A DNA stretch of 64,000 nt from a virus. The stretch spans positions 62,001 to 126,000 of IMG/VR virus record IMGVR_UViG_3300044700_000691. One strand, given 5' to 3'. Under the pieces are notes generated by a model. The model saw only the letters and a program-made list of their open reading frames with translations, made no database searches and was not told where the DNA came from. Shown piece by piece: positions 5,313 through 61,294 of the stretch (position 1 is the first letter of the stretch; each line of letters starts with the position of its first letter). Made by a program: the position numbers and the translations under genes.

Positions 5313-5660
5313 TTACGGTAATTCTGGTTCAGCTGGAGGTGTAACTGGCTCAGGTGCCGCTGCTGGTGCGGGTTGAACCCATTCAGTATCTCTAACTAGA
5401 CCGGCTTTAGCCAATACAATATCAACAAATACCATATCATCAGTACCCCAAGTAGAGGTATCTTCTGACGTGCAGTTAATGTGCTTAGTCATAATTTGAA
5501 CAGCTGGGGTAGCTGGTGATCCTGGCATAGGATCTGTTTCATACAAATTAACAGTGGCAGAAGATCCGCCTGATGCTAAGTCATAGTGCATTAAGTGAAT
5601 AGTAGCAAATTCTGCAGTTTTGCCAAATCCGATAATCGATTCGATTTTTACTTTTAACAT
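5313..5660 (-). CDS. small protein with proline-rich tail, unknown function
   Basis: I use ATG 5660 as the start (115 residues). An upstream in-frame TTG at 5669 would add three residues. The N-terminal approximately 90 residues look like a compact beta-rich domain (MLKVKIESIIGFGKTAEFAT; VNLYETDPMPGSPATPAVQI). The last 20 residues are a Pro/Ala-rich tail (APAAAPEPVTPPAEPELP), typical of a flexible linker. A variant late promoter GATAAATA lies 19 nt upstream and an intrinsic terminator follows. It closes the tail end of the LamG cluster, so a small virion or decoration protein is plausible but unproven. Confidence 0.65.
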   Translation of the reverse strand: MLKVKIESIIGFGKTAEFATIHLMHYDLASGGSSATVNLYETDPMPGSPATPAVQIMTKHINCTSEDTSTWGTDDMVFVDIVLAKAGLVRDTEWVQPAPAAAPEPVTPPAEPELP

Positions 5661-5679
5661 TGTGAACAATATTTTTTAT

Positions 5680-5692: not shown

Positions 5693-7024
5693 CTAAGCTA
5701 GTCCAAAACGGGTTTGGTACTTCTTAAAGTTTTGAGTAACTTCAGCTTGCGACAGGACTCGATTGTAAATTTTAGCAACTGGGATTTCTCCATTATATGG
5801 ACCAGTTGTAGCCCCATGCCTCTTTCCAAATATAATAACTGAATTAAAATTATAATTAAGGATTGGGTATGCGGTAGTGGTCAATATTAATTGGCCATTT
5901 CTATATAGCTTATAACTGTAATTAGAATATGTTGCAACTAGGTGCACAAACCCTGTAGTAGTTTCCTTTACCCCCGACCAAGCAGTTCTTTCAAATCCAG
6001 TTGACCCAAACCCCCAGCCTTGGCCAGTTTCATTGTATACAATTGTATCAAATGGCTCTCCACTTTCTCCCATTATTCCAATGACTCCTCCGGCTTGATG
6101 ATTTATATCATATACTCTAGTAACAGCTTCATACGTTTTATCTGTAATATTTGGTAAAAATACTCCAGTTTGACCATAGTCGTTTGTACCATCAAATATT
6201 ATTTGTGCATTTGCATCAAAAGAAACAGTTGATATATTAATTGTTGAATTTCCTGCCAAAGGTAAAAGACCCTGTGTTGCAGACCGAGTATAGGCTGAGC
6301 TATATTGAGTAGCATGTGGTTTTACTTCTAATTGAACGTCTGCTATTCTTAATTCGCCAGCGCCAACTGCATGTCCATAAAAATACATGGTTGGTCCACT
6401 ACCTAACTGACCATAGTCCTTGGCCATAAATGTGATAGATACCCTTTGCCAAGTATTAACCTCTGTATTATATCCATTTTGTAAGCCATCATGGAAATCA
6501 TTATAACCACGAGTGGGACTATAAGAATAGATCCCAACATGAGCGGCTCTGTCTAGATTCTCAACGTACTGTAACCAAGATATTGTGTAAAGTGTTCCAG
6601 CAATAATTCCTATACTATTTAGTGACGCTAAGCCTGTCCCAAAATATTTAGCTTGCCAAACGCCCGTTTCATTATACATTCTCACGACAGGCCGCTGTAT
6701 AATAGTATCAAATATCCAATAAGCATGTCTAGTATTATACCACTCAACTCCTGAGTTTGCAGTATTGATACCAGTGTTTAGGTAATATGAAATATCTCCG
6801 CCGTTTGTATTAAAAACTCGAATTGCGCCTGGATGATTGGCTGCTATATTACCTGTGCCAGATTCTGGCATATATGATTCGTATGACCCATCTAATCTGG
6901 CATTTTGATGATAAATGTGATTGGTAGTAGGCTCCCCTAAGTAAGAGTTAACTGTATCTATTGTGTCGTATGCAAAAATTAACCCGCTTGAAACTGATGC
7001 ACCAAATCCGTATTGTATTGCCAT
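5693..7024 (-). CDS. LamG/concanavalin-like domain virion protein (type B)
   Basis: I place the start at ATG 7024 (MAIQYGFGASVSSGLIFAYD), giving 443 residues. An upstream extension would overlap the previous gene by 120 bp in another frame, and the chosen ATG is one base past its stop. Related starts (SGLIFAFD..D..NSY.GEP..N) begin the proteins at 8113 and 9695. Residues about 35-270 form a beta-rich carbohydrate-binding-like region. The C-terminal approximately 180 residues look like a LamG/concanavalin A-like jelly roll (NAQIIFDGTNDYGQTGVFLP ... GEIPVAKIYNRVLSQAEVTQ). The ending YNR-x-L-x(3)-EV-x(2)-NF is shared across this cluster. LamG folds in phages are surface-exposed and usually bind glycans, so receptor binding or capsid/tail decoration is inferred. 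Confidence 0.75.
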   Translation of the reverse strand: MAIQYGFGASVSSGLIFAYDTIDTVNSYLGEPTTNHIYHQNARLDGSYESYMPESGTGNIAANHPGAIRVFNTNGGDISYYLNTGINTANSGVEWYNTRHAYWIFDTIIQRPVVRMYNETGVWQAKYFGTGLASLNSIGIIAGTLYTISWLQYVENLDRAAHVGIYSYSPTRGYNDFHDGLQNGYNTEVNTWQRVSITFMAKDYGQLGSGPTMYFYGHAVGAGELRIADVQLEVKPHATQYSSAYTRSATQGLLPLAGNSTINISTVSFDANAQIIFDGTNDYGQTGVFLPNITDKTYEAVTRVYDINHQAGGVIGIMGESGEPFDTIVYNETGQGWGFGSTGFERTAWSGVKETTTGFVHLVATYSNYSYKLYRNGQLILTTTAYPILNYNFNSVIIFGKRHGATTGPYNGEIPVAKIYNRVLSQAEVTQNFKKYQTRFGLA

Positions 7025-7025
7025 A

Positions 7026-7739
7026 TTATAATCCGTATCTTGTTTTCTGTACGTTAAAGTTTTGAAGGACTTCTTGCGCTGATAGAGCTCGGTTGTACAC
7101 TCTAAATTGAGAGAAAGATCCTTTATATGGAGCTCCGCCATTCGCATAAGTGCCTAACCCGTAACCATTACTACCCCTACCCATACCGCCATTGTGAAAA
7201 TTAAAATTAGAGGTTCCATCTACCCGAATTCCATTTACATAGGTATTTAAACTTCCTATGCTACTATTAGGTACGGTATCGGTAAATACCCAAGTAAAAA
7301 TGTTCCAAGTATTATTAACCCAACTTCCCATGCCGCCTGGATAATCTCCGCTTGGACTACCGGGAAAGTAGTGAGAGCCCATGCAGCTTGTATGACAATA
7401 AAACATAGGGCCGTAATTTCCATTAGTTCCCATTGATATAATTCCATATGATCCGCCTTGATCTAATCCATTATGATAAAACATTAGCTCTAAGGTAAAG
7501 CTAGAAAGTCCTCCAGTTAATGTAGAGTTTCCAATCCAATCGTTAGTGCCGTCTAGGGTTAATGCTTTAACACCGTTGATTGTTGTATAACTAATTCCAT
7601 TATACAAGGTACCATGATGGTTGCCGCCAGCTAAATCATACCAAGTAGAGCCGCTGCCCGGATATGAGTTAGTATCAGCTGCATCTAGCGCCAATACTAA
7701 GCCGGTTGTAATAATTTTAGGTGAGAAGTGTAAAGCCAT
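7026..7739 (-). CDS. LamG/concanavalin-like domain virion protein (type A)
   Basis: A 237-residue protein that is essentially one LamG domain. It begins MALHFSPKIITTGLVLALDA followed by A-D-T-N-S-Y-P-G-S-G, a signature it shares with the protein at 11037. Strands such as SFTLELMFYHN and WNIFTWVFTD, a G-rich loop (RGSNGYGLGTY) and the C-terminal FRVYNRALSAQEVLQNFNVQ are typical of the family. It has a late promoter 6 nt upstream and directly precedes a type B paralogue. Decoration or glycan binding is likely; the ligand is unknown. Confidence 0.75.
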   Translation of the reverse strand: MALHFSPKIITTGLVLALDAADTNSYPGSGSTWYDLAGGNHHGTLYNGISYTTINGVKALTLDGTNDWIGNSTLTGGLSSFTLELMFYHNGLDQGGSYGIISMGTNGNYGPMFYCHTSCMGSHYFPGSPSGDYPGGMGSWVNNTWNIFTWVFTDTVPNSSIGSLNTYVNGIRVDGTSNFNFHNGGMGRGSNGYGLGTYANGGAPYKGSFSQFRVYNRALSAQEVLQNFNVQKTRYGL

Positions 7740-7745
7740 ATAAGA

Positions 7746-7753
7746 TATTTATT
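7746..7753 (-). promoter_or_regulatory. late promoter -10 element (AATAAATA), close to ATG
   Basis: Minus strand GCCAAATAAATATCTTATATG; the octamer ends 6 nt before ATG 7739, the third case with almost no room for a leader. Confidence 0.6.
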
Positions 7754-7765
7754 TGGCTTAAAAAA

Positions 7766-8113
7766 TTATTGAGGCCAATTAGCTTCAATTGGAGAAGACC
7801 ACTCCTCAGTTGCAAGAAGAGCAAGGATTTCCGAATGAGTTAATTCTGGATAAGAGTCACTCCAAACCGAAGGCCTGCCATAGGTTCCGGCTATGGTCGT
7901 AAAAGTCGATTCTTCCATAGATTCAGGATTTAACATTGTTGTGACAATATCTTCTTCGACTACTTGAATTTCATATTTAATAAATGTTTTGGTTCCATCT
8001 AGTGAATATCGTAGGGACTCTTGATTAAATTCTAAAACCTGATCGAAATTGATAGATTCGACTAGGGCAGATGGAATTATTAACCATCTTCTGTTTTCAA
8101 ATGGGGTTTGCAT
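7766..8113 (-). CDS. small protein of unknown function in LamG cluster
   Basis: A 115-residue protein beginning MQTPFENRRWLIIPSALVES. It is acidic, with a central strand-like region (YSLDGTKTFIKYEIQVVEED) and a C-terminal EILALLATEEWSSPIEANWP. No motif is recognised. Its ATG overlaps the stop of the upstream LamG gene as TAATG, so translation is coupled. The small genes at 10918 and 11718 also sit next to LamG genes, and such partners might be assembly chaperones or small structural subunits. That is inference from position only. Confidence 0.65.
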   Translation of the reverse strand: MQTPFENRRWLIIPSALVESINFDQVLEFNQESLRYSLDGTKTFIKYEIQVVEEDIVTTMLNPESMEESTFTTIAGTYGRPSVWSDSYPELTHSEILALLATEEWSSPIEANWPQ

Positions 8114-9681
8114 TATAAATTAAATCTTTTTTTGTATGCTTTAAAGTTTTGAGATACCTCAGCCGCAGTTAGGGCTCTATTATAAAATTTAACAACATCG
8201 ATTAAACCTGCCCAATTATGCCCACCACCTGAGTATCTGGAACCTATACCACGATGGGTTGTACCAGAAGATAGTGTATTAACTGAACCAGTTGAAACTG
8301 ATGCTTCTAGGTTTCCATTTAGGTAAACGCTAACGGTTGAGCCATTCCAACTATATGCTACATGGTAATATCTATTTGCTGTAATGGTAGAGGTTGTTCT
8401 GGCTCCAGTAGTATGGCCGCCGTTTCCATCAAACCAATTTGATCCATTGTGTAAGTCTATTCCAAAAAAAGTTTGACCTCCATAATTGTATAGAGCAATC
8501 CAAGTACTTGCTTCTTGAATATAAAGCTGATTATAAGAACTTGGTAAAGAAGTCGGCTTACAAATAAATTCATAGGTGGCTCGAGTAAAGCCAGATTGTA
8601 AATTTGTTGATAGTGGTATATAGTCATTTGTTCCGTCAAAGGTAAGGGCACCCGCTGAATCAAATGAAACGTTTGCTACATCAAGTATGGCAGATCCAGC
8701 AACAGTAAGCAAAGATTGGGTTGAGCTTCTAGTTCCTGCAACAAATGGCGTTGGATGAGTATTTTTTTCAACCTGAATATTTGCTAAATCGTATTTGTCG
8801 AGTGCGCCTGGCCAAAAATATGAAATTACATTTTCATTAATTGGGGTAAATTGAAAAGACTGTCGTGTCCACACTCCAAGCGGGCCATGTGTATAACCGT
8901 GACCCCAACTCGTTGGGCTAACACTGCCATAATTATAATTTTGCATCGAACCATATGCATTAGCGGTTTGCTTGTTTAGTGCCCTTGTCCAAAATGAATA
9001 GGTATGAACCTGTCCAGGAACAACGACTGCATCTGGTCCATATGACATACCGTCTGCGCTCTCTGGACGGTGTGCATGTAATCGCATGCAATCAGTTTTT
9101 TGAGAAGGATAAAGATCAAATCCTCCAACTATAATTTCTTTTACTAATCCTGAGTTGGGTAGATGTGGAGGACCCCACCACTTAGTCGGAAACCCGCTAG
9201 AATTTACTGAAACCCGCTGATCTAACCAAAATGAATCATGTACTTTGTGTCCTCTTGTTGCAGGATTAATATAACCTTGATCCCCGCCTTGTGAGCCATT
9301 ATATTCATGTAAGCTAAATTGAGTGTTTGAAATTTTCTTAGCAAAGTAATTAACGCCAGCTGTTACCCCACCCCCTGTTGTTTGAGGAGTAATAACATCA
9401 AACGAATAAATTCCATGGGAACCAGCCGTTGTAATAATATTACCAGAAACGCTTGATATAGCTGGAATATCCCAATGTACTGCACAGCCATTATTTCCAC
9501 AATACTTATTTGTATTATAGGTGGCCCAACCGTTACCAAAAGTTGGATAACTGTTTACTTGAGGAGAGGGTATAGTATTTACAGCAGGCTCGCCCTTATA
9601 ACTATTAAAAAAATCTGCAACATCAAACGCAAATATTAATCCAGTTGAAATTTGTCCATTATATCCTTTACGACTTGGCAT
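8113..9681 (-). CDS. LamG/concanavalin-like domain virion protein (type B, longest)
   Basis: A 522-residue protein. The N-terminus MPSRKGYNGQISTGLIFAFD and the following NSYKGEPAVN match the type B family. Residues 80-180 contain a separate beta-rich block (NIITTAGSHGIYSFDVITPQ; GVNYFAKKISNTQFSLHEYN), a module seen in other phage adhesins. A LamG-like domain occupies about residues 335-522 (GALTFDGTNDYIPLSTNLQS ... VVKFYNRALTAAEVSQNFKA). It ends with KKRFNL. It is surface-exposed in the virion by family precedent. Stop and next start form TAATG at 8113. Confidence 0.75.
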   Translation of the reverse strand: MPSRKGYNGQISTGLIFAFDVADFFNSYKGEPAVNTIPSPQVNSYPTFGNGWATYNTNKYCGNNGCAVHWDIPAISSVSGNIITTAGSHGIYSFDVITPQTTGGGVTAGVNYFAKKISNTQFSLHEYNGSQGGDQGYINPATRGHKVHDSFWLDQRVSVNSSGFPTKWWGPPHLPNSGLVKEIIVGGFDLYPSQKTDCMRLHAHRPESADGMSYGPDAVVVPGQVHTYSFWTRALNKQTANAYGSMQNYNYGSVSPTSWGHGYTHGPLGVWTRQSFQFTPINENVISYFWPGALDKYDLANIQVEKNTHPTPFVAGTRSSTQSLLTVAGSAILDVANVSFDSAGALTFDGTNDYIPLSTNLQSGFTRATYEFICKPTSLPSSYNQLYIQEASTWIALYNYGGQTFFGIDLHNGSNWFDGNGGHTTGARTTSTITANRYYHVAYSWNGSTVSVYLNGNLEASVSTGSVNTLSSGTTHRGIGSRYSGGGHNWAGLIDVVKFYNRALTAAEVSQNFKAYKKRFNL

Positions 9682-9694
9682 ATCTTAAATTATT

Positions 9695-10915
9695 TTAACA
9701 GAGGTAGCATCCTCTATTTTCATATCTGATTCGGGTTCTGTTATAAATTTCTAATATCTCAGGTTGAGCTAGGACTCGATTATATGCCAAAGCCATTGGA
9801 ATTTCTCCAAGATATTTAGAGTGGTATTCGCCTCCTATCATTGGCTCAGATCCTAAGTAGGTTCCGCCATAAAATCCGGTATTTACACTGGCAACTTGCG
9901 AGCCGTTTAAATATAGTTTAAGTATACCATCGGTCGATCGTGTACAGGCTAGCATATTCCAACCAGTTGGCGTGCCGCCTCCACCTAGAAGATATTCACT
10001 AGTTCCATTATTGTTTGCAACCCAAGCCGCAATTCCACCATGATAATAACTCATTAACTTAAGGCCAGCTCTATAATCAGGCGATGTGCAAATTAAAGTT
10101 CTATGTGGAGCACCCGTATCGCCATACCACTCAAACCATGCAACTAGAGTTTGATTTTGTGATAAATTTGCGGCAGAAATACCGCTTACCGTTAACCAAT
10201 TATTTGTGCCGTCTAAATAGATTGTGCCATCGCTAAGATAGCCGGCTCTAGTTAAATCAATTTGACCTGTGCCAGTTACATCAAGTAAACCGCCGGTGGT
10301 GCTTCTTGATCCAAGTACAAGCGGCGTTGAAAATCCTTTTTGTTCAAGCTGAAAACCAAAATATGCGAGTTTTTCGCCAACAAAGTCGCCAGTATAGCTG
10401 CTCATATAGAGGCCATTTTCATTAGCTTGGGTTGTTACAGTAGCCGACAGTCTAATCCACTTATGTCTGGGCCAATTTAGGTAATTAGTAGATCCATTAT
10501 AGGCAAATGAGCCAAGCGAATTATTATTAACTGCAGTTCTAACATAAGGCGCAGATGCAAGGGTTGTTCCAGTAAAATAAAAATAAATTGAAAAACTATA
10601 TATTGTACTTGGGCTTACTGGAACAATTGAACTGCCTATATGCTGACTCCCAACTGCAGTTACGGTTGAACTAAAAACTTTAAGACCAGATGTATCGACA
10701 TTTGCAATTACGGGTTTAGCAATTGATGTGTCATTATCATTAAATGTGGTTGATCCACTGTTAGTCCACCAATTTGAGTTGGAATTTAGTGAAGGATTTC
10801 CCGCATACGCTAAATTTGTAGTAGGCGCCCCTAAATATGACGTATTTTTGTCATTTGTATCAAACGCAAAAATTAAGCCGCTTTCGTTATAATCTAATCC
10901 GCTTTTAATTGACAT
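9695..10915 (-). CDS. LamG/concanavalin-like domain virion protein (type B)
   Basis: A 406-residue protein with the type B opening (NESGLIFAFDTNDKNTSYLG). A first beta-rich domain spans about residues 30-200 (carbohydrate-binding-like, with SNWWTNSG and PRHKWIRLSATVTTQ). A second LamG-like domain spans about 225-395 (GTIYLDGTNNWLTVSGISAA ... IPMALAYNRVLAQPEILEIY). Instead of the usual NFxxxKxRxG ending it closes with YENRGCYLC, with two cysteines near the end, which is unusual in the cluster and may allow disulphide or metal contact. Its ATG is two bases from the 40-residue gene's stop. Confidence 0.75.
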   Translation of the reverse strand: MSIKSGLDYNESGLIFAFDTNDKNTSYLGAPTTNLAYAGNPSLNSNSNWWTNSGSTTFNDNDTSIAKPVIANVDTSGLKVFSSTVTAVGSQHIGSSIVPVSPSTIYSFSIYFYFTGTTLASAPYVRTAVNNNSLGSFAYNGSTNYLNWPRHKWIRLSATVTTQANENGLYMSSYTGDFVGEKLAYFGFQLEQKGFSTPLVLGSRSTTGGLLDVTGTGQIDLTRAGYLSDGTIYLDGTNNWLTVSGISAANLSQNQTLVAWFEWYGDTGAPHRTLICTSPDYRAGLKLMSYYHGGIAAWVANNNGTSEYLLGGGGTPTGWNMLACTRSTDGILKLYLNGSQVASVNTGFYGGTYLGSEPMIGGEYHSKYLGEIPMALAYNRVLAQPEILEIYNRTRIRYENRGCYLC

Positions 10916-10917
10916 AA

Positions 10918-11040
10918 TTATTGCTGTGTGGCAGAGTTTGCCTCGGCTTCAGAATAGTAAATACCAATTAAGTCGGCACCCTCTAGAACAAACCAGCATG
11001 GAGTGCCAGCTAAGTCAATTCCGGTTTCTACGTATTTCAT
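10918..11040 (-). CDS. 40-residue small protein
   Basis: The frame from ATG 11040-11038 to TAA 10920-10918 encodes MKYVETGIDLAGTPCWFVLE followed by GADLIGIYYSEAEANSATQQ. The ATG overlaps the stop of the upstream LamG gene as ATGA and the stop is two bases before the next gene, so the spacing is that of a true operon gene. The centre (TPCWFVLEGADLIGIYYS) resembles a small beta-hairpin, and the C-terminal EAEANSATQQ resembles ends of small phage tail accessory proteins (compare NKAKNAAAQP at 11718). Function unknown. Confidence 0.6.
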   Translation of the reverse strand: MKYVETGIDLAGTPCWFVLEGADLIGIYYSEAEANSATQQ

Positions 11041-11714
11041 CGACCGTGTCTATTTTTTTGTGCATTATAGTTTGCTAAAACTTCTTCGCCAGATAAGGCG
11101 CTATTATAAACCCTTATCGCAGAGATTCCGCCAGCAAATTGACGACCGTCGCCTTCCCATCCAACATTACAGTCACTATAGATATAACCAGCCGCTGCAT
11201 AAGTTGCAACAGTATTAACTAGAGTGCCGTTTACATATTGTTTTAGTGTATTGGTTCCTCTATCCCAAACCGACGCCAGGTGGTGCCAAGCTTGTCTGGC
11301 CATGGTTACGCCAGGTTCGTGATATCCTTGGTTTGTGGTTGCATACCAATAATTACTTAATTGTTGATTTCCTTTATTCCAACTTAGATAAGCATAGCCT
11401 TGAAAAATACAACCGCGATCTCCTCCACTTACTTCAGACGCAGCTGGATAAATCCAAGCCTCTAGTGTAAGTGAATTCATGTATTGGGCTGTACCAAATC
11501 TAATTACAAACCTGTCGCCGACCCCATCTAGATTAAAACACGTTGCACCGCCTAGTGTAGTATTAACTGGGCTGCCATAAATATCTGCATAGAATCCATT
11601 ACCGCTAATATCAGACCAAATTGCGCCAGATCCAGGGTAACTATTAACGTCACCTGCATCCAGGGCTAGGAGTAAATTTCGGGTAGTTATTCTTGGATTA
11701 TAGTGTAGTGCCAT
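11037..11714 (-). CDS. LamG/concanavalin-like domain virion protein (type A)
   Basis: A 225-residue single-domain LamG protein beginning MALHYNPRITTRNLLLALDA, with GDVNSYPGSG matching the type A paralogue at 7026. It has the canonical LamG core: SLTLEAWIYPAASEVSGG, then WHHLASVWDRGTNTLKQYVN and a C-terminal IRVYNSALSGEEVLANYNAQ. The strand pattern and the VNGxLVN loop are the same as in host-derived LamG modules. Binding of a host surface glycan or decoration of the virion is inferred. It ends in RHGR-TGA overlapping the small gene. Confidence 0.78.
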   Translation of the reverse strand: MALHYNPRITTRNLLLALDAGDVNSYPGSGAIWSDISGNGFYADIYGSPVNTTLGGATCFNLDGVGDRFVIRFGTAQYMNSLTLEAWIYPAASEVSGGDRGCIFQGYAYLSWNKGNQQLSNYWYATTNQGYHEPGVTMARQAWHHLASVWDRGTNTLKQYVNGTLVNTVATYAAAGYIYSDCNVGWEGDGRQFAGGISAIRVYNSALSGEEVLANYNAQKNRHGR

Positions 11715-11717
11715 AGA

Positions 11718-11969
11718 TTAAGGTTGAGCCGCTGCATTTTTTGCTTTATTGTGAAATAAGAGAGCATAGTACATAAAGGTATGAGTATAGATTCCATACT
11801 CTGGGGCACCAATATGAATTGGTCCGTTTTCACGTTCACAAATAAAGAATATAGTTGAGTTTACATCAACTATTCCAACGATTTTAAATCTGGAAACTGC
11901 TCCAATGTTGTAGTATGTGTCTAATTCATAGACAGCATCTTCGATTTGATATGTTTGTAAGTTTTGCAT
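11718..11969 (-). CDS. small protein of unknown function
   Basis: An 83-residue protein beginning MQNLQTYQIEDAVYELDTYY, beta-strand rich (VSRFKIVGIVDVNSTIFFIC), ending NKAKNAAAQP. Start and upstream stop overlap as TAATG (11969). No motif is recognised. With the 40- and 115-residue proteins it is one of three small genes inserted among the LamG genes. Confidence 0.65.
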   Translation of the reverse strand: MQNLQTYQIEDAVYELDTYYNIGAVSRFKIVGIVDVNSTIFFICERENGPIHIGAPEYGIYTHTFMYYALLFHNKAKNAAAQP

Positions 11970-13285
11970 TATTCGAATCCTCCCATTTTTCTATTATGTG
12001 ATACAACTTCACCGATAACATAGGTGTGAGCTTGGTCAACTTCAATTTGAACTACTTCCATTTCTCCAATTGATTCAATCGATTCAATTTCGGCAAGTCC
12101 ATTTACTGTTTGTACTTTAGCACCTATCCATAGTTCGGATAGTGCAATAAAGCCCATACTTTCGGTTAAAAATTTGTGATTACTTGATACTTTAAGTTCT
12201 TGGCCTCCAATTACAGTACGGCTAACCATATTAGTTCCAGGATTAACTGCGGTCACCCTGTATGATCCCCATTCACCAGTTGTTTCGTGTTTAGTGTAAA
12301 CATAATCTCCAATAGTAAGCTCTCCAGCGGTCACCCAAGTATTAGGATTAATTAAGATTGGCATATCTGGAGTAGGGCAGAATGTTCCACATATTTGATT
12401 AAGATCTGCATATGCTCCATATAATTGAGATATTCCACAGAAAACAAGTTCTCCATAACAACACGAATACCCAGAGACAGGATTATCTAAACAGTCTCGA
12501 CCTTCCCAATATCCACTACCATCTGAAAAGAAATTATAACAGTTATTAGCAGGAGGTTGATATCCACATGTTGTAGAATTGCTTTCAGCCAGAGAAGAAT
12601 AGGTTCCATTACAACCATTTGAATAAGTATAGTAAAGATCAAATCCTGAGCAATAACTGCTTAGATAAGTTCCATTTGCTGGCGAACAGCAACAGCCGCC
12701 GCATGCAGTGGTACAACCTTGACTTACATCATAGGTTCCGCAGCTACCGTTTGCATATCGATAATAAAGAGTACACCCTGAACAAAATTGACTTAAGTAG
12801 GTGCCATTTGCTGGGCAGCCTGCGCTGGTCGTAATCGTTAAAATATTTGAATAACCCGAATAACCACCGGTTGAGGTACAGGTTATTCGCACTCTTATTA
12901 AATAGGTCATGCTTGAGGCAAGTCCACTAATAGTTCTGGTTGCTGAGCAGCCTCCAGAATCTGTGCTCCAGGTCGAACCGTCGTTTGCACTAGATTCAAC
13001 GTGCATAGTTGTACAATTTGAATAGCTAACATTAATTGTAATTGAACTTGATGTAACTGAATTACTGGAAATACTAGGAGCATTGCAGCAAGCAAACGTG
13101 TGATTATAGTTACGCCACTCAGATATTGAAGCTGGGTTAGCTGAAGAAGGAAAGCTTGGTGAGCACGAATTAATCGCAGCATAACTACCATTCTCAGCTG
13201 AGTCTAGACTAATATTTGTACCAGCTGCACGGCCAAGCTCTGTATTGATTTGGCTCATTGAAACCGTAGTCGCGCCTAGTGCCAT
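11969..13285 (-). CDS. Cys-rich tail protein with FN3-like domain and C-terminal Hint (intein/hedgehog) domain
   Basis: A 438-residue protein in three parts. Residues 1-60 have the start VSMSQINTELGRAAG and ASISEWRNYNHT, which resembles a recurrent phage tail-fibre opening. Residues 66-155 look like an FN3 domain, including CTTMHVESSANDG and GLASSMTYLIRV. Residues 157-300 are Cys-rich with two copies of PANGTYLSxxCSGxxLYYxY. Residues 303-431 form a Hint fold: candidate first Cys C303 (TFC-PTPDMPI), a central strand region with GELTIGDYVY, block-B-like SSNH (H370), block-F-like AHTYVIGE (420-426) and terminal H430-N431. There is no room for a homing endonuclease. The residue after N431 is Arg, not Cys/Ser/Thr, so splicing is not expected; N-terminal and/or C-terminal self-cleavage is. 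Only seven residues follow. It lies next to the 2240-residue S74 fibre. Confidence 0.8.
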   Translation of the reverse strand: MALGATTVSMSQINTELGRAAGTNISLDSAENGSYAAINSCSPSFPSSANPASISEWRNYNHTFACCNAPSISSNSVTSSSITINVSYSNCTTMHVESSANDGSTWSTDSGGCSATRTISGLASSMTYLIRVRITCTSTGGYSGYSNILTITTSAGCPANGTYLSQFCSGCTLYYRYANGSCGTYDVSQGCTTACGGCCCSPANGTYLSSYCSGFDLYYTYSNGCNGTYSSLAESNSTTCGYQPPANNCYNFFSDGSGYWEGRDCLDNPVSGYSCCYGELVFCGISQLYGAYADLNQICGTFCPTPDMPILINPNTWVTAGELTIGDYVYTKHETTGEWGSYRVTAVNPGTNMVSRTVIGGQELKVSSNHKFLTESMGFIALSELWIGAKVQTVNGLAEIESIESIGEMEVVQIEVDQAHTYVIGEVVSHNRKMGGFE

Positions 13286-13286
13286 A

Positions 13287-16200
13287 TTATTCGCCTCTTA
13301 ATTTTTTAACCTCTAATTTAAGATCTTCTATTTGTGCCTGTTGCTCTTTAATAGCCTCAATTAAGAGTGCAGTCATGTTACCATAAGAAACATTATACAT
13401 TCCAGCGTTATCTTGATTTACAACTTCTGGAACAACTTCTAGCGTTTCTTGTGCAATAACTCCAATCTTAGTTCGAGTATCATCAGAATCAGTTCGGTTA
13501 TAAGAAACTCCACGTAGTGCTAAGGTTTTTGCTAGAGCATTTTCAATTGTATGTATATTGGTTTTAACTCTGGCATCTGAGTATGCTGTTACATCTCCAG
13601 CCATTGTAAGATTACCAGACATATCCATTTGCAATCTATTAGTAGATGCTGACCAACCACCAATGCGCATTACATTATCTGAGTCTAAACCAAAGTTTAC
13701 AGCATAATATCCCCCTCTATGAAAAGACATTATTGCACCACCACCATTATTTGAATATGCTTGTAAAGGAGCTGAATCTGTACTTGTATTTCTATTAGAT
13801 ACAAAATAATTTTGTCCTGTCCAACTATGACCATTACCTAATGAATTAGATATGCTGTTAGTATTACCTACTGTTTGAGATGCAATATTGTATGCTGTAA
13901 TAAATTCATAAAATGTACCATATGATGTAGATGTAGAAGCTTGAACACTTATTGCCATTCTTGGTGTACCATTTCTTAATGTATGTAAAGCACACATTTG
14001 AAGTACATCACCACCAGAATAACCATTAATCCAAAGTGTATCTGACCATACAGACCAAGCTCCTGTCATAGCAGCTTTTAATCCAATACCATTATTAAAA
14101 TATACTTGAGGATTAGTTTGTTGACCTCCAGCATAAGCTGTAGCTAAATATGTTGAATAACCACCAATATTTGTTTGGTCTCCAGTATTTGTACCAGAAG
14201 AAGAACCTGAATGGGAACCGCTAAAGTTTGATGAGGCAAAGGTTCCAGCTATCTGCATATTACCAGATGTAGCGTTTATTGCAGCTATTGGAGCATAAGA
14301 TATTCTACCCCAAGTAAATCCTCTACCTGCATCCCCATCATTCATTTGTGTTTTGATAGAATAATCATTAACCGGTCCATACTGATACAATGAAGATGAA
14401 CCCATACTAATTTTATAAGAATCCGATGACCAAAGCTTTAAACCATTACCTTCGCCTGGTGTCACATTATAGAAGGAGTTCTGATTACTTGCGTTTGGCG
14501 CGGAACCTGCGCTATTTGCATATCTTACACCAAGATCAGAAGGTTCAATCCAACCACTTCCTGAATATGCTCCATTATTATAAACGTATCTAGAGTAATC
14601 AACATAATTTCGACCTTCTCCTCTTGAAATAGCTACACGGGAACTAGCGTCAAACAGAGCCCCGGCATATAAATTATTAGCAGCTCTAACGTGTGAATCT
14701 CCATTGCCGACTGAAAATAATTCAGTTGCCATAGTAGAATCATCATAGAATCTAGTTCCACCATATCCAGTATTTGCTCCGATCTTAATTCCAGTGTGAT
14801 ATCCTATATGTAGATCTGGGTAAGGGTGACTCCAGCCTCCTCCACCTTGATAAATTGCATATGAGTGATTACTTGTGTTACCAGAATCTCCACCGACTCC
14901 AGTAAATCTTAGAACACGCAGAGTTCGATCTTCGTTATCTCTAAAATATGAAAAATTATTAATTTCAGTCTCAGTATAGTATCTGTCATCATGTGTATGT
15001 GAAGAAGCGGCCCATCCTCCGTAATTTCCTAAGTCATTTGAGAATTGAGAAAGAGCAGTTGGTCTACCTGTAACGCCGGTCCATGCAACATTGGTTGCAG
15101 TTGCAGCGTTTCCTGAAATATTTGTTTGATCACCAGTGTTTGTACCGCTTAAATTAGCTGCAAACCAGTTACCACTATTATCAGCATAAGCTCCCCAACT
15201 GTTAGATGAAGTTAAGAAACCGATTCTTCCACTATTACAGTGTATTCTTCTTGTAGTTTCATCTGTATCAGTCATGTAGATATCTGATGATGTACTATTA
15301 CCCACGGTTAGCGATCCATAAACTTGAACTCCTCCAGTATCTACTCTAACTCTCCAGCTATCTGTACTATCTAATAGTCCAAACCCTGCAGCATCTCCAT
15401 ACACTGATCCTTTAAGAGTACTTTCATGGTTAAGTCTAAATTGTAAGTGCACAACTGATCCGCCATTACCTGTAATACCCCATATAGAGCCTCCTCTTGA
15501 GTAAAAGTGATTTCCATTTGCCTGATTATAGAGACCAGTATTGTTTGAATTATTTCGGAACCAGCTGTTATTGTATAAGTCAGTAAAGGTTGGAGATGAT
15601 GAAGTTAGGAGAGCTTGGTTTAGATAACTAGATAACCAGGTTCCTCTGGTTCCAAAGTAAATATCGCCATTTACTAAGAAACTGCCATTTGTTCGTATAC
15701 CTGCATTAGGCGCATCTCCATAGAAATAGTAGGTTTCATTACCTACATAAATATTTGAGTCAAATCTAGCAGAACCTCCGCTATAAACCATTTTATTTCC
15801 GCGTACTCTTAGATAGGTACCGTCAGTCATAAACCAGCCGCCGCCCCAGCCAAAGGATAGGTCTTCATCTTTAAGGTAAGTTGAGGTACCTCGACCAAAC
15901 ACAATACCATCGTTATTGCCTAATAATTGAATTGAGCCATTTACATAAAGTCGGTTATTGGTTGGAACTCCAGTTGCACCAGAGTTATCAGAGGCAGTAT
16001 AAGAAAAATCAGTTGTTCCAAATCCAACCCGGCCGTCTTGGCCTACATAGATTGCATTTGTTCCAAACTTACCAATTTGTACAACATTGTTTGCAAATAC
16101 TTCAAGTACAGGTAAACCTGCAAGGGTATTTACGCTATATAGAGAATCTGAAAGATCATCAACTACTGTAAATAGTCGACCGTTAATTCCATTTACAGCA

Positions 16201-19200
16201 AAAGCTTCAGCTCCTTGGCTTGGGCTATTAATCGTTAAGGCACCGGTCATAGTGTCTCCGCTTACATTAACATATAAATTATCTGCAGTTGCTTGTGATA
16301 ATCCGCTTGAAGACAAAGTTACAGAGTTTCCGCCTGAAATACTTAGGGTATTTCCACTAAGGCTTAAGGTTTGACCATCAGTATTTGTGTCTGTATCAAT
16401 ATCATTAAATGCAGCAGTTAAGGTTGAACCATCACCTTGAGTTAAGGTTAAGGTTTTTGTACCAGTGCCGCTAAATGAAATTGCAGTAGGTCTCTTATCA
16501 TATGCAGTATTCCAGTTTGTTGAATTTCCTCCTGTTGCTGTGATAACTCCTACCGTCCAGATACCATAACCAATAGCTGTTTGGGTACTGCCATTAGCCA
16601 TAAATAGTGCTTGGTGTCCTAATCCAGATTTAGATTGTCCTCCTACATTTGTATGTGTCCATGCAATACCATAAAGAGATCCGGGAGAAGTACCATCGGC
16701 AGATACTTTGTAAGCATCTCCCATTGCAAATACACCCTGGTATCGATCGGAAGCATACAGGCCAACTATACCATTACCATAGTTATCGTCTATATAAAAA
16801 TTACCATTAGCTCGAGTTGCTCTTGCTGCAGTACCCGATACATTAATACTCCAAGTACCACTATTATAAACATAGGCAGTACCGTCTGAGTGTTTTAGTC
16901 TACCTCCATATATGTAAACGGTTCCGCCGCCATTACCAAAATACATATCACCACTTGAGTAATGATTAAAATACATTTGATAAACATTGCCTGCTCCACC
17001 TCTTGTGTCTATATGTAAATTACCGTTAGAAGTTCTAATACGAGCGTATGTTGTATCAGTCGACCAACCGCCAAGATGTAAAGCTGCCGCAGCACTATAT
17101 GAGCTAGCTCCGTATAGAATTAATGCAGTAGCATCACCATTTACAATTGTATTTGTAATATTTGTATAAACTCCATTTGTAACAGAACCGGCATTACCTG
17201 AAATATTAGTAACACTAGTTAAATATCCACTGTTATTAGTAAACTGAGAAATATTCATTGAACTTAGAGCGCCGGCTGTAGCTACAGTTTGTGAACCAAT
17301 GTTTGCTGAAGTTATTACAGCACTACCGTTCGCATACAATGTTCCGCCAATAGCAGCATAAGTATTTCCAGAAGTATCTATTTTAAATCTTTCTGTACCC
17401 CATCCATCTGAAGTTGAGTTATTATTTCTATAACCCATGTTTTGAGTAACACGAAAGTTATCATCATTAGAACAATATCCTACATTCCATCTAGTATCAT
17501 TACCTCCATATGAAAATTGAATAGATGGTCTATCAGAATCGGCAGTATTTATTCTATATCTAGCTACAATACCCCAAGAGTGATTACCTCTATCAGATTC
17601 AAAACTGTATGGAATAAAGTCTCCAGTTGCTGATTGTAAAGTTATCCATTTTCCAGATTGTCCATGGCTCGCTGTACCAACGTTACTTCTATGAAACTCA
17701 GAACCATCACTCCAATATTCATGACCCGCGCCTCCAGAAGGGGCTGCCGCTATATAGGTGTGACCATATATCCAGTTATCAGCGCCCGCTGTTGAAATAC
17801 CATTAGGAAAGAATGCAGAATCGGCAGTGTTCCAAGGATTTCCAGGACTTATGTAACCGCCTTTTGCATAGATAACATCTGTGCTAGGATTTACATAAAC
17901 GTGGGTTGTCCCATAAACATTATTACCAGAACCCCATAATAATTGATATGTTGAGTTTGAATTATTATCATAATTTATAGTTACTTGTGAAGATGTTCCT
18001 GCAATATTTGCATAGGCAACTCGTACACCAGCTGGAGTACCTGGAGAAACTTTAAGTTCCCAGTAACTACCACCATCATAGTTCATGTACATATAGTATG
18101 GAGCAGCTCCGCCGTAAACATAACTTCCATCACTAGCATATAATCGTGTAGAGTTTGTTGCGTAAGTAACAGATTGAGAACCAATATTACCGGTTGTGAT
18201 TAATCCTAAGTTTGATATAAAGTTTGCTGGAGTTTGATAACGCATATAGTCATCATCAGAACAATATATTTTATTTATACCACTTGAAAATGCTCCAGAA
18301 GTTGTGTTAATCCATCCCGCTTGAATATATCCATTGGCATCTGTTCTTACAATTTTGTTTACTTCATTGTTTCTACCACCGTGTACTGCTAACCCACCTG
18401 CTGTTGTAGCATTGCTTACAGACTGAGAGCCAATATTACCGGTTGTGATTGCGTCAGTAATGCCATAACCTGAAATTGTAGTTGGTTTACTGGTTAATGA
18501 AGCAAATGTATGCGAATGTGATATTGCTGCATATCTACCATCTAACAAAGATTGTTTCTTAGTTCGGAGACCATCTATACGTGATGAATTGACTGCAGCT
18601 AATCCTAATGGAGCAGGCGCAGGGACATCATATTGATTTGTACCTGACCAAGCATCATCATAAGATAATGTACTTGAACTATATAAAATGTCAGGTGAAC
18701 CGCTTTGATAAAAACCATTAATTGGTTGATCAGAAAATAGGTGATAAACTGCGCCACCTCCACGTAACATAAAGACATACCCCATTGAGTGGCTATATAT
18801 GAACATATCGGCGCATACGTTTGTATAAGATTCGTTAAATACTCGTAAACGATCTGCATATTCAGCACCGCCCCATCCACCAAAATTACCTTCCCAATCT
18901 AAGAGAAGACCTCCATGGTGAACACCTGTTCCAATTGGATCCCAAGGAGCAGGTTCACCATATCCGCGCTTAATAATAATTCTACGCCAAACATCCTGAT
19001 CTCCTCCCCAAAACTGAACAGCATAAAATCTGTCAGGGTCTCCATCAACTGTAATGTCAACAGAATATGGTAAGGTTGTAACGCCTAACATATTAGATAG
19101 GCCGTTAACTTTAGTCCCAGTTAATTGAGATCCACCTAGATATACACTGCTAAATGAAGGGGCACTGTCTGTTCTAACATTTTGATTTAGATAAGTAGAT

Positions 19201-20009
19201 AACCAATTTCCTCTAGTTCCCAAGTAAATATCTCCATTTGCTAAGAAATTACCATTGGTTCTGATACCAGAGTTTCCGGTATCGCCATAGAGGTAATACG
19301 AACCCTGTGAACCAACTGCTGCATTATTATAGCCAGGATAATATGGATGAGTTGAAAGTAGGTCTCCAGTTAGGGTTCCGCCTGAAAGTAATAAGTATCT
19401 ACCATCGTGGTTATGCGAAGGAAGACTTGTTAAATAACCCGCACTTGCATGGTTACCCCATCCGTATGCAGTGTTCCAATTTGAGGCATTATATCCAGAG
19501 GCAGAAATGGTACCAGTAATAGTTAAATTACCACCGTCCATGTCTAAAATTACGCGGCTTGTTCCTCCACCAACAAATTCAAAATCATTGTTATCACCAT
19601 TCCATCTTAAACCCCAGGCATTAGCAGCGGTTGCGTGCGAAGGATAATAATCTCCAGAGATACCCCAAATATCAAAGTTACCATCGCCTACATCTAAACC
19701 AACTATACCGCCAGGAAATCGTGGACGATTTGCTACCGCGGATGGAAATGTTATTTTTCCAGTTATTGTATCGCCAGCCTTTGAAACTTTACCTGCAAGT
19801 GAGCTCGTAAGTGTTGATGAAAAACTTGCATCATTTCCTAAAGCTGCTGCCAACTCATTAAGAGTATCTAGCGCGCCAGGGGCACCATTAATTAAGTTAT
19901 TAATTTGTGTTGTAACATAAGACGTTGTCGCAATGCTGTGAGCCGCTAGGTTTCCAGCATGGATCGCGCTGTGTCCAGCAATTGTAGTTCCTGATATTAA
20001 TTGTGCCAT
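13287..20009 (-). CDS. giant tail fibre with S74 self-cleaving chaperone domain (2240 aa)
   Basis: A 2240-residue repetitive fibre. It starts MAQLISGTTIAGHSAIHAGN, then has a cassette ALDTLNELAAALGNDASF and many GTN, TGNIGSQSV and NISGNAA repeats typical of trimeric beta-structured phage fibres. Several cassettes are shared with the 1960-residue fibre immediately downstream. The last 97 residues (from S2144) form an intramolecular chaperone of the peptidase S74 type: SDARVK with S2144 and K2149 as the candidate Ser/Lys dyad, a strand-turn core (RTKIGVIAQETLEVVPEVV) and a terminal coiled-coil helix (EQQAQIEDLKLEVKKLRGE). In the family, this domain trimerises the fibre and then cuts itself off before the Ser. 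It probably binds the host; receptor unknown. Confidence 0.85.
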   Translation of the reverse strand: MAQLISGTTIAGHSAIHAGNLAAHSIATTSYVTTQINNLINGAPGALDTLNELAAALGNDASFSSTLTSSLAGKVSKAGDTITGKITFPSAVANRPRFPGGIVGLDVGDGNFDIWGISGDYYPSHATAANAWGLRWNGDNNDFEFVGGGTSRVILDMDGGNLTITGTISASGYNASNWNTAYGWGNHASAGYLTSLPSHNHDGRYLLLSGGTLTGDLLSTHPYYPGYNNAAVGSQGSYYLYGDTGNSGIRTNGNFLANGDIYLGTRGNWLSTYLNQNVRTDSAPSFSSVYLGGSQLTGTKVNGLSNMLGVTTLPYSVDITVDGDPDRFYAVQFWGGDQDVWRRIIIKRGYGEPAPWDPIGTGVHHGGLLLDWEGNFGGWGGAEYADRLRVFNESYTNVCADMFIYSHSMGYVFMLRGGGAVYHLFSDQPINGFYQSGSPDILYSSSTLSYDDAWSGTNQYDVPAPAPLGLAAVNSSRIDGLRTKKQSLLDGRYAAISHSHTFASLTSKPTTISGYGITDAITTGNIGSQSVSNATTAGGLAVHGGRNNEVNKIVRTDANGYIQAGWINTTSGAFSSGINKIYCSDDDYMRYQTPANFISNLGLITTGNIGSQSVTYATNSTRLYASDGSYVYGGAAPYYMYMNYDGGSYWELKVSPGTPAGVRVAYANIAGTSSQVTINYDNNSNSTYQLLWGSGNNVYGTTHVYVNPSTDVIYAKGGYISPGNPWNTADSAFFPNGISTAGADNWIYGHTYIAAAPSGGAGHEYWSDGSEFHRSNVGTASHGQSGKWITLQSATGDFIPYSFESDRGNHSWGIVARYRINTADSDRPSIQFSYGGNDTRWNVGYCSNDDNFRVTQNMGYRNNNSTSDGWGTERFKIDTSGNTYAAIGGTLYANGSAVITSANIGSQTVATAGALSSMNISQFTNNSGYLTSVTNISGNAGSVTNGVYTNITNTIVNGDATALILYGASSYSAAAALHLGGWSTDTTYARIRTSNGNLHIDTRGGAGNVYQMYFNHYSSGDMYFGNGGGTVYIYGGRLKHSDGTAYVYNSGTWSINVSGTAARATRANGNFYIDDNYGNGIVGLYASDRYQGVFAMGDAYKVSADGTSPGSLYGIAWTHTNVGGQSKSGLGHQALFMANGSTQTAIGYGIWTVGVITATGGNSTNWNTAYDKRPTAISFSGTGTKTLTLTQGDGSTLTAAFNDIDTDTNTDGQTLSLSGNTLSISGGNSVTLSSSGLSQATADNLYVNVSGDTMTGALTINSPSQGAEAFAVNGINGRLFTVVDDLSDSLYSVNTLAGLPVLEVFANNVVQIGKFGTNAIYVGQDGRVGFGTTDFSYTASDNSGATGVPTNNRLYVNGSIQLLGNNDGIVFGRGTSTYLKDEDLSFGWGGGWFMTDGTYLRVRGNKMVYSGGSARFDSNIYVGNETYYFYGDAPNAGIRTNGSFLVNGDIYFGTRGTWLSSYLNQALLTSSSPTFTDLYNNSWFRNNSNNTGLYNQANGNHFYSRGGSIWGITGNGGSVVHLQFRLNHESTLKGSVYGDAAGFGLLDSTDSWRVRVDTGGVQVYGSLTVGNSTSSDIYMTDTDETTRRIHCNSGRIGFLTSSNSWGAYADNSGNWFAANLSGTNTGDQTNISGNAATATNVAWTGVTGRPTALSQFSNDLGNYGGWAASSHTHDDRYYTETEINNFSYFRDNEDRTLRVLRFTGVGGDSGNTSNHSYAIYQGGGGWSHPYPDLHIGYHTGIKIGANTGYGGTRFYDDSTMATELFSVGNGDSHVRAANNLYAGALFDASSRVAISRGEGRNYVDYSRYVYNNGAYSGSGWIEPSDLGVRYANSAGSAPNASNQNSFYNVTPGEGNGLKLWSSDSYKISMGSSSLYQYGPVNDYSIKTQMNDGDAGRGFTWGRISYAPIAAINATSGNMQIAGTFASSNFSGSHSGSSSGTNTGDQTNIGGYSTYLATAYAGGQQTNPQVYFNNGIGLKAAMTGAWSVWSDTLWINGYSGGDVLQMCALHTLRNGTPRMAISVQASTSTSYGTFYEFITAYNIASQTVGNTNSISNSLGNGHSWTGQNYFVSNRNTSTDSAPLQAYSNNGGGAIMSFHRGGYYAVNFGLDSDNVMRIGGWSASTNRLQMDMSGNLTMAGDVTAYSDARVKTNIHTIENALAKTLALRGVSYNRTDSDDTRTKIGVIAQETLEVVPEVVNQDNAGMYNVSYGNMTALLIEAIKEQQAQIEDLKLEVKKLRGE

Positions 20010-59701: not shown

Positions 59702-61294
59702 ATGTCAAAAACAATAATTTTTGATGCTGATGCAAGAAACCGATTAAAAGTTGGTGTTGATACATTAGCCAATTCAGTAAAAGTAACAATGGGTCCAGGT
59801 GGACGTAATGTCGTTATCGCAAGAGATGGCGGTTTAGCTGTTACAAAGGACGGAGTTTCCGTTGCTAGAGAAGTAGTATTATCTGATCATATTGCTGATG
59901 TTGGTGCGCAAATGGTAAAACAGGTTGCACACAAAGTTGCGCAGTTAGCCGGCGATGGTACAACCACGGCAACAGTATTAACTCAAGAAATTTTCAATAG
60001 AGGATTAAAAGCAGTTGCGACAGGAGCCAACCCAATCGAATTAAAAAGAGGTATGGATGCTGCTTTAACTGAAATAGTTGCAGCGCTAAGCCAATCATCA
60101 ATTCCAGTTAAAGATCTTACTCACATTCATCAAGTTGCAACAATTTCTGCAAATAACGATGAATCTATGGGTGCTTTAATTACTCAATGTATGGAGGCAG
60201 TTGGATTTGATGGAATTATTACGGTTGAGCAAAGTAAATCAGCTGAAACCTATGTTGATATAGTAGAAGGAATGCAATTTAAATCAGGCTACCTATCACC
60301 ATATTTTATTAATTCTAACGAAAAACCTCAAGTTGAATTTGAAAACGCCCTAATCTTATTAGTAGATGGTAAAGTTTCTGTGCTAAATGATATTGTACAG
60401 TTCTTAGAATATTCAAATCAAAAGGGTCGTCCACTATTAGTTATTTCTGAAAGTGTAGACGGCGATGCTTTAAATACAATGGTTCTTAATAAATTAAGAG
60501 GAACAATTAAAGCAGCAGCGGTTAGAGCTCCAGGCTTTGGAGAATTACGTAAAGAAAACCTAGACGATATTGCAATCCTAACTGGCGCCAAAACCGTCTC
60601 TGAACGAGAGGGTTATTCATTAGCTGAAACCATTGCTTCTGAAGTATTAGGTTCAGCCACTAAAGTTATTGTTACAGCAGACTCTACTACAATTATTGGT
60701 GGAGAAGGCCTGCAAGACTCGATTAAAGAGCGTATTTCAGATATTAATGCTCAAATTGAAAACAGCACAAACGAATCAGCAACCCTAATTCTTAAAGAGC
60801 GTATTGCTAGAATAGATGGTGGAGTTGCTATTATTAAAGTAGGAGCCCACTCTGAAATTGAAATGCGTGAGAAAATTGACCGCATTGACGATGCAATAGG
60901 TGCAACCAGAGCGGCAGTTGAAGAAGGTATTGTTGTAGGCGGTGGAGTTGCACTTTGTAAAATTGCTGAAGAATTAACACCAACTATTGCTCAAACCCAA
61001 AACTTTGAACATAGACTAGGTCGTACAATCTTATTAGAATCATGTCTAGCACCATTTAGAGTTATTTTAACTAATGCAGGAGAGTCACCAGATGCAATTC
61101 TTTCAGAAATGAAGAATAGAGGTCAGGAATATAATGTAAAAACCAGAGAATATTGTAATTTTATTGACTCAGGTATTATTGATCCAGCTAAAGTAGCCAG
61201 AGTAGCTATTGAAAATGCAGTTTCGATTGCATCTATGATGCTTACAACTGAGGTCTTAATGGTACAAGACCCACCTACAGAAACTAAGGCGTAA
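59702..61294 (+). CDS. groEL: phage-encoded group I chaperonin (GroEL)
   Basis: A 530-residue GroEL homologue with complete ATP-binding residues: GPGGRN (31-36), D50 in TKDGVSVARE, GDGTTT (84-89), D397 of RIDDAIGATRAAVEEG, and GGG near 413. The apical domain (about 190-375) is conserved (LLVDGKVSVLNDIVQFLEYS). The C-terminus ends TEVLMVQDPPTETKA and lacks the GGM tail of bacterial GroEL, a feature also known from some phage chaperonins. No groES or gp31-like cochaperonin gene is visible, so it may work alone, as described for phage EL, or use host GroES. It might fold the giant fibre or capsid proteins. Confidence 0.95.
   Translation: MSKTIIFDADARNRLKVGVDTLANSVKVTMGPGGRNVVIARDGGLAVTKDGVSVAREVVLSDHIADVGAQMVKQVAHKVAQLAGDGTTTATVLTQEIFNRGLKAVATGANPIELKRGMDAALTEIVAALSQSSIPVKDLTHIHQVATISANNDESMGALITQCMEAVGFDGIITVEQSKSAETYVDIVEGMQFKSGYLSPYFINSNEKPQVEFENALILLVDGKVSVLNDIVQFLEYSNQKGRPLLVISESVDGDALNTMVLNKLRGTIKAAAVRAPGFGELRKENLDDIAILTGAKTVSEREGYSLAETIASEVLGSATKVIVTADSTTIIGGEGLQDSIKERISDINAQIENSTNESATLILKERIARIDGGVAIIKVGAHSEIEMREKIDRIDDAIGATRAAVEEGIVVGGGVALCKIAEELTPTIAQTQNFEHRLGRTILLESCLAPFRVILTNAGESPDAILSEMKNRGQEYNVKTREYCNFIDSGIIDPAKVARVAIENAVSIASMMLTTEVLMVQDPPTETKA

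Follow-up and report, generated by a model that had tools for sequence, protein, structure and literature searches.

Our study examined a 64-kilobase (kb) window of viral DNA (64,000 nucleotides (nt), positions 62,001 to 126,000 of the 216,815-base IMG/VR record IMGVR_UViG_3300044700_000691), and within it an array of five genes for proteins with a Laminin G-like (LamG) domain, here treated as candidate adhesins. All five are open reading frames (ORFs) of the − strand and belong to one operon. Read 5' to 3' on that strand, the order is a gene for a 2240-amino-acid (aa) fibre-like protein, a 438-aa Hint-type gene, s83, A1, s40, B2, B3, S, A4, B5, s118, s149 and a 210-aa gene, where A and B denote two sub-types of LamG protein and the numeral gives the array position. 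Packing is dense, with the start of s40 inside the A1 stop and the start of S on the last base of B3. The features of the array, in window coordinates, are as follows.

11037-11714, − strand: A1, type A LamG adhesin, 225 aa, array position 1 (PF13385, 63.1 bits)
10918-11040, − strand: s40, 40-aa microprotein with an ATGA overlap with A1
9695-10915, − strand: B2, type B LamG adhesin, 406 aa, array position 2 (PF13385, 41.6 bits; AlphaFold2 model)
10283-10813, − strand: inserted domain of B2, approximate extent (split-profile test and structure alignment)
8113-9681, − strand: B3, type B LamG adhesin, 522 aa, array position 3 (PF13385, 76.6 bits)
7766-8113, − strand: S, 115-aa putative small partner protein, start overlapping the B3 stop (linkage to LamG genes)
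7026-7739, − strand: A4, type A LamG adhesin, 237 aa, array position 4 (PF13385, 35.6 bits)
5693-7024, − strand: B5, type B LamG adhesin, 443 aa, last array position (PF13385, 44.5 bits)

The first-pass annotation of this DNA had reported five homologous LamG paralogues of adhesin type in two sub-types, and these observations were confirmed: all five proteins exceed the curated Pfam cut-off for Laminin_G_3 (PF13385, 27.6 bits), and no further LamG gene was found in the 216,815-base record. Two details required amendment. The gene at 5693 (B5) is real but had been over-extended, as the ORF from 7147 (484 aa) overlaps the upstream gene and the ATG at 7024 (443 aa) fits the relatives. The motif proposed for type A was approximate only, the 11037 gene (A1) reading NLLLALDAGDVNSYPGSG in this region. 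The two sub-types are general across the LamG ORFs of 82 related loci (designated L with a number), which fall into size classes of mostly 198-260 aa and mostly 356-531 aa, the latter with a peak near 400 aa.

Type B is a type A protein into which, behind the first strand, a domain of about 190 residues has been inserted, as shown by sequence profiles and a structural model. The consensus sequences, drawn from 67 proteins of type A and 119 of type B, have in common a start (about GP..v.dGLvlaLDaad.nSY.G) and an end (YNRaLta.Ev.QNYNa.K.RF.l), and past the insert type B resumes with a segment like that directly following in type A. When the type A profile was cut at the insertion place and both parts were run against the 119 type B proteins, the C part matched all 119 (E value <1e-3) and the N part matched 71 (E <0.05), 70 of them within the first 20 residues, with a median distance of 189 residues between the two matches in these 71 proteins. 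The N-part match was weak in the type B proteins of the window itself (E 0.026 for B2, 1.2 for B3 and 0.13 for B5). In the AlphaFold2 model of B2 (predicted local distance difference test (pLDDT) 88.6, predicted template modelling score (pTM) 0.87), the insert lies between the first LamG strand (residues 14-19) and the remaining LamG domain (from about residue 212). This model matches ConA-like carbohydrate-binding domains with a jelly-roll fold at Z scores of up to 19.2; domain 4 of AbnA (5hon_A), a contiguous 206 aa solved with arabino-oligosaccharide, aligns over 187 residues within model range 10-392 (Z 18.6). The structure alignment of type B covered 105 of the 119 proteins, including the window copies, with 11 left out, among them several of at least 489 aa and near-copies. 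About 12 residues precede the first LamG strand in adhesins of the window type. B2 also matched clostridial neurotoxin binding domains (identity 12-19 %); these matches stem from the ConA-like jelly roll that both possess and give no hint of a toxin. As a separate observation, L034 (LR756501.1, a 735-kb phage) has the array A-A-B-B after its fibre gene, with the second type B gene in two overlapping frames (9834-11050), possibly a frameshift.

Conservation in both sub-types is highest at the two ends of the protein. Information per column over the first 40 columns, the middle and the last 35 columns was 2.34, 1.16 and 2.19 bits in type A and 1.97, 1.20 and 2.33 bits in type B. Comparison of the window with L040 (the same contig as L004), in which the flanking s149 and 210-aa genes are 99.3 % and 99.5 % identical, revealed position 5 proteins that are 89 % identical over the first 35 residues, 29 % in the core and 92 % over the last 25 residues. 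At base level, this gene pair has three conserved islands (the start, the junction of insert and LamG, and the end) with unrelated sequence between them. End conservation by array position was examined in pairs with core identity below 50 %, 20 of the same position and 47 of different positions, using 5000 label shuffles and omitting two long proteins from position 4b as well as L037, which is nearly identical to the window. Identity of the N and C ends was 0.64 and 0.57 in same-position pairs versus 0.54 and 0.42 in different-position pairs, and no shuffle reached the observed difference at either end. Core identity was 0.29 versus 0.26, a difference that also lies beyond the shuffles (reached by 2 of 5000) but is small.

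It could be argued that the ends are conserved merely as the structural frame of the LamG fold, with no docking function and no meaning in array position. Different-position pairs still being 54 % identical over the first 35 residues and 42 % over the last 25, part of the end conservation can be ascribed to fold constraint. As a full account this is unlikely, because same-position ends are more alike at similarly unrelated cores and because recently shared cores bear different ends, as in L023 and L069, where a core 85 % identical is flanked by ends of 43 % and 41 %. A4 and a gene of L052 have cores 83 % identical with ends of 67 % and 73 %, and no other gene of these two loci matched, while L098 and L107 have only the LamG half in common. 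There are exceptions, as core and N end are alike in L056 and L103 (0.76 and 0.73), and the N end (0.67) exceeds the core (0.60) in L090 and L105. These comparisons indicate that cores or their halves move between phages, with the ends mostly following the resident array.

The first-pass annotation had interpreted the array as tandem duplication with diversification. The row of five homologous genes, with the two sub-types interleaved, would be in keeping with a recent local origin of this kind followed by point mutation, but we consider it very unlikely. In the core, the paralogues of the window have only about 20-30 % identity to one another. A1, A4, B2 and B3 have their nearest relatives in other phages (the A1 orthologue is 89 % identical in L002/L037 and 60-61 % in L098/L100/L110), B5 matches other phages better (37-41 %) than it matches its window paralogues, and the gene order is common to many phages. 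Measured against L037/L002, the nearest relative that shows any differences from the window, all ten genes compared had ratios of non-synonymous to synonymous substitution rates (dN/dS) of 0.02-0.20, and no diversifying selection by point mutation was seen. Variable cores between constant ends also resemble the targeted variation made by a diversity-generating retroelement. Whole cores are replaced here, however, rather than single codons changed, and no reverse transcriptase (RVT_1) was detected in the 216,815-base record, which is possibly incomplete, whereas 3 of 14 control genomes were positive; this explanation has next to no chance of being correct. The sequences indicate instead that diversity arises mainly from core replacement between conserved ends, together with gain and loss of whole genes.

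The small frames of 115, 40 and 83 residues had been put forward as possible partners of the LamG proteins. All three are conserved in related phages, and the proposed partner role is supported for S and s40, which are tightly linked to LamG genes. A survey of IMG/VR returned at least 532 relatives of S, of which the best 80 were analysed as loci; being the best-scoring, these favour close S relatives. Thinning at 90 % S identity reduced the 80 loci to 63 representatives, which contain 68 S genes. Of these, 62 directly follow a LamG gene, 4 follow some other gene and 2 lie at the locus edge; the median gap is near 12 nt. In the same loci, LamG lay directly upstream of 61/65 S genes compared to 9/103 non-S ORFs of 80-140 aa. 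Relatives of S were also found in 6 of 50,697 phage records and at 2 places among 84,980 species genomes, one a Chitinophagaceae-labelled metagenome-assembled genome (MAG) with the order fibre-A-B-B-S and the other a Planctomycetota MAG with LamG-S. Between the window and L040, S is 60 % identical and the adjoining B3 core 21 %, which suggests that the target of S is more probably the constant part than the binding core.

The structural model of S is confident (pLDDT 88.7). S had no Pfam match to E 1, no NCBIfam match to E 0.1 and no curated family, and its only PHROGs match was a 12-residue chance match (E 0.19). Three small proteins without a known function were matched in BFVD at E ≤0.001. 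S lies directly downstream of a putative receptor-binding gene, as Tfa-like tail-fibre assembly chaperones do, and has no sequence family match to them in Pfam, NCBIfam or PHROGs.

For s40, a profile search of 6,663 short ORFs, seeded by five of the 11 members or their near-copies, found 11 significant members, all 11 of which overlap the last 4 nt of a type A gene. The linked type A genes comprise a six-row clade (98) and one separate pair. This pattern marks s40 as a real gene family. S and s40 might otherwise be unrelated small genes carried by chance (morons), or regulators, in favour of which stands the lack of a Pfam, NCBIfam or PDB match. This is very improbable given the position of S directly behind LamG, which recurs in the distant phage S-SKS1 and in the Planctomycetota MAG, the invariable overlap of s40 with type A, and dN/dS values of 0.13 for S and 0.10 for s40. 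By contrast with S and s40, s83 is probably not an adhesin partner, because it adjoins the Hint gene before the array and is present, by eye, in L016, a distant relative found via its Hint-gene homologue. No LamG gene was seen by eye in L016 between the s83-like gene and the next small gene.

The array of the window is one version of a widespread module that usually consists of three adhesin genes and one S. The module was detected in dozens of environmental phages, and the order A-B-B-S recurs in many of them. L040 and L054 carry A-B-B-S-A-B-B, from which the window differs by the absence of the second-last B, and L037 and L050 are without the whole second set; in the only near-identical contig (L001/L036), the array proteins are identical. 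Adhesins were counted only in arrays bounded on both sides, 15/63 being cut by a locus edge, and genes were taken from a simple ORF caller. Exactly three LamG genes were present in 27/48 bounded arrays, and three adhesins in 34/46 when non-LamG folds were counted. This rise is suggestive and no test, because the list of non-LamG adhesins was drawn up after the arrays had been inspected. At 70 % S identity, 17/24 bounded arrays had three adhesins, or 12/24 with LamG only.

Several arrays with two LamG genes hold a further gene of another fold in the same row. One such family is fibrinogen-like, with eight members (L043, L048, L055, L067, L080, L096, L097 and L103) that take an adhesin place in or next to the array; PF00147 was over its cut-off in two of the four scanned, and seven of the eight begin M-x(3-5)-[GNS]-P, as the adhesins do. 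The fibrinogen-like proteins have a partner gene of their own (70-74 aa), and L005 has a type B protein with a fibrinogen-like piece fused to it.

Taken together, we estimate a probability of roughly two in three that this locus encodes the exchangeable receptor-binding set of a tailed phage, a tail tip with several adhesins whose constant ends dock and whose binding cores can be exchanged. The window array would then consist of one A-B-B-S set (positions 1-3 and S) and, behind it, a second, shortened A-B-(B) set (positions 4 and 5). Every adhesin would be a ConA-like (LamG) jelly roll in which the first strand and the C-terminal helix-tail are constant and position-specific, with type B bearing the extra beta-rich domain nested after the first strand. 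In the ConA-like fold, the first and last jelly-roll strands adjoin, and in the B2 model the C-terminal helix comprises residues 384-399. We infer that the first and last strands and this helix form a docking face that holds the adhesin at its position on the fibre, that S, and for the A1 lineage s40, may aid docking or folding by acting on the constant part, and that the variable cores are predicted to bind cell-surface glycans. The conserved islands would allow recombination to swap binding cores with docking kept. That the LamG proteins are virion proteins is suggested by annotation, since the type A genes of Flavobacterium phage immuto are labelled 'structural protein' and LamG proteins match PHROG 8510 ('virion structural protein'), and by the tail-gene neighbourhood.

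Several points weigh against this interpretation, in addition to the end conservation between positions described above. The label in immuto is an annotation only, and the whole interpretation is drawn from sequences and models. At position 2, the window has neither core nor C end in common with L040/L054 (C end 16 %, aligned), and 12/46 bounded arrays do not have three adhesins. The fold of S gave only weak alpha/beta matches in the PDB (best Z 3.0), which point to no family among those listed, and no Foldseek match at E ≤0.001, so the case for its role comes from linkage. The insert of type B remained below the cut-off for CBM_4_9 (PF02018, 25.9 bits) in B3 (15.9), the 621-aa protein of L005 (23.1) and L047 (22.4), with no match in B2 and B5. 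A more specific proposal, which we regard as tentative and on balance doubtful, is a hetero-oligomeric fibre tip of fixed valence three, in which S assembles three different adhesins (LamG, LamG with the nested domain, fibrinogen-like or other) whose ends carry a common docking code, and in which the window phage carries the module twice, the second time minus one adhesin. If true, one fibre would carry three different, separately exchangeable specificities. Overall, the interpretation offered by the first-pass annotation is partly supported, its partner proposal standing for two of the three small genes and its account of the origin of the array not being supported.

The features that border the array are listed below.

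13287-20009, − strand: 2240-aa fibre-like protein upstream of the array, with a C-terminal Peptidase_S74 chaperone domain (PF13884, 55.3 bits, residues 2144-2197)
11718-11969, − strand: s83, conserved small gene that precedes the array and is linked to the Hint-domain gene (55-95 % identical in relatives)
5313-5669, − strand: s118, conserved small gene bordering the array (77-91 % identical in relatives irrespective of array content)

Downstream lie tail tube-like and baseplate wedge genes, the match of the 210-aa gene to a tail tube being weak. By eye, s118 resembles genes of 168-182 aa at the same place in L016 (11261-11779), L067 (11097-11645) and L107 (3531-4079), and together these possibly form one baseplate-side family. 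The 438-aa gene before s83 includes a Hint/intein-like domain (window 11969-12390, − strand) with PT-HINT and intein profiles below cut-off. In relatives, this domain has a conserved first Cys, an H within an NH(K/R)FL block (SHKFL in L017) and a terminal HN, the next residue being R or some other non-nucleophile. It appears to be a mobile C-terminal domain, because the L016 homologue of the gene matches residues 1-279 only and L017 carries the domain on another protein. In L002 (7959-9922), two extra genes lie inside the adhesin operon between s83 and A1, one of 323 aa with a signal-peptide-like start and one of 334 aa with DUF401 over cut-off and a CitMHS-like match below it. Elsewhere in the window, a transfer-messenger RNA (tmRNA) gene lies near the array (1997-2463, + strand; Rfam RF00023, 104.6 bits; predicted tag of 27 residues), the region also being present by eye in L001-L005 and L023, and a GroEL-like chaperonin is encoded at 59702-61294 (+ strand; PHROG 5725, E 1.1e-148).

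The module is common in environmental phages, as the IMG/VR relatives of S indicate, and nearly absent from sequenced isolates, as the few phage records with S indicate. The putative partner genes S and s40 have no family name, and S is a handle for locating the adhesins of many uncultured phages. In the literature on LamG, ConA-like and fibrinogen phage tail proteins, largely judged by title, we found no account of the multi-gene build with usually three adhesins, of constant ends on both sides or of the S and s40 families.

Among isolates, Flavobacterium phage immuto (NC_055915.1, 139718-142812) resembles the window and provides an existing test system for the model. It has, in this order, a fibre-like gene, two type A genes (220 and 233 aa), a type B gene (458 aa) and an S homologue of 112 aa that is 61 % identical to S (the last four being KNV73_gp051 to gp048), the small genes being annotated as hypothetical. 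Unlike the window, it has one set, without the second A-B set, and no Hint gene in the stretch compared. The distal tail-fibre locus of T-even phages (Tetart et al. 1998) reportedly has one adhesin with short motifs, whereas the present module has up to six adhesin genes in fixed order and three conserved islands. Laminin G3 lectin-like domains are reported on virion proteins of cyanophages (S-SKS1, S-PM2) and jumbo phages (PMC7824862), and these LamG tail proteins resemble those of the window, for which a virion location is likewise proposed. S-SKS1 has an S homologue directly after a LamG gene. In these phages, the LamG domains are fused into long proteins (470-960 aa in S-SKS1), compared to single-domain genes in the window.

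In Alteromonas phage V22/A5, a small gene is paired with the receptor-binding protein, and the pair is common to distantly related phages (PMC10579305). The small partner gene beside an adhesin is a likeness to this chaperone module, although our analysis found no sequence or fold link between S and the V22/A5 chaperones, and S stays here while the adjoining adhesin core changes. The branched tailspike complex of Ackermannviridae (PMC11414711) combines several receptor-binding proteins on one virion, in which docking parts are conserved and binding parts vary, with exchange between phages by recombination. The principle of swapping binding parts on conserved docking is known from T-even fibres as well. 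The window module is similar in having several adhesins, conserved and variable parts and exchange between phages; the sequence pattern of this trait is present, and docking itself we infer. The Ackermannviridae tailspikes are trimeric with a large N-terminal anchor and XD and TD domains (PMC11414711), whereas the adhesins of the window module are small, with a single domain and a constant part at either end, and are accompanied by extra small partners. Swappable receptor-binding domains are thus already known, and what distinguishes this locus is the way they are built: separate small adhesin genes, usually three, both ends constant, and dedicated partners.

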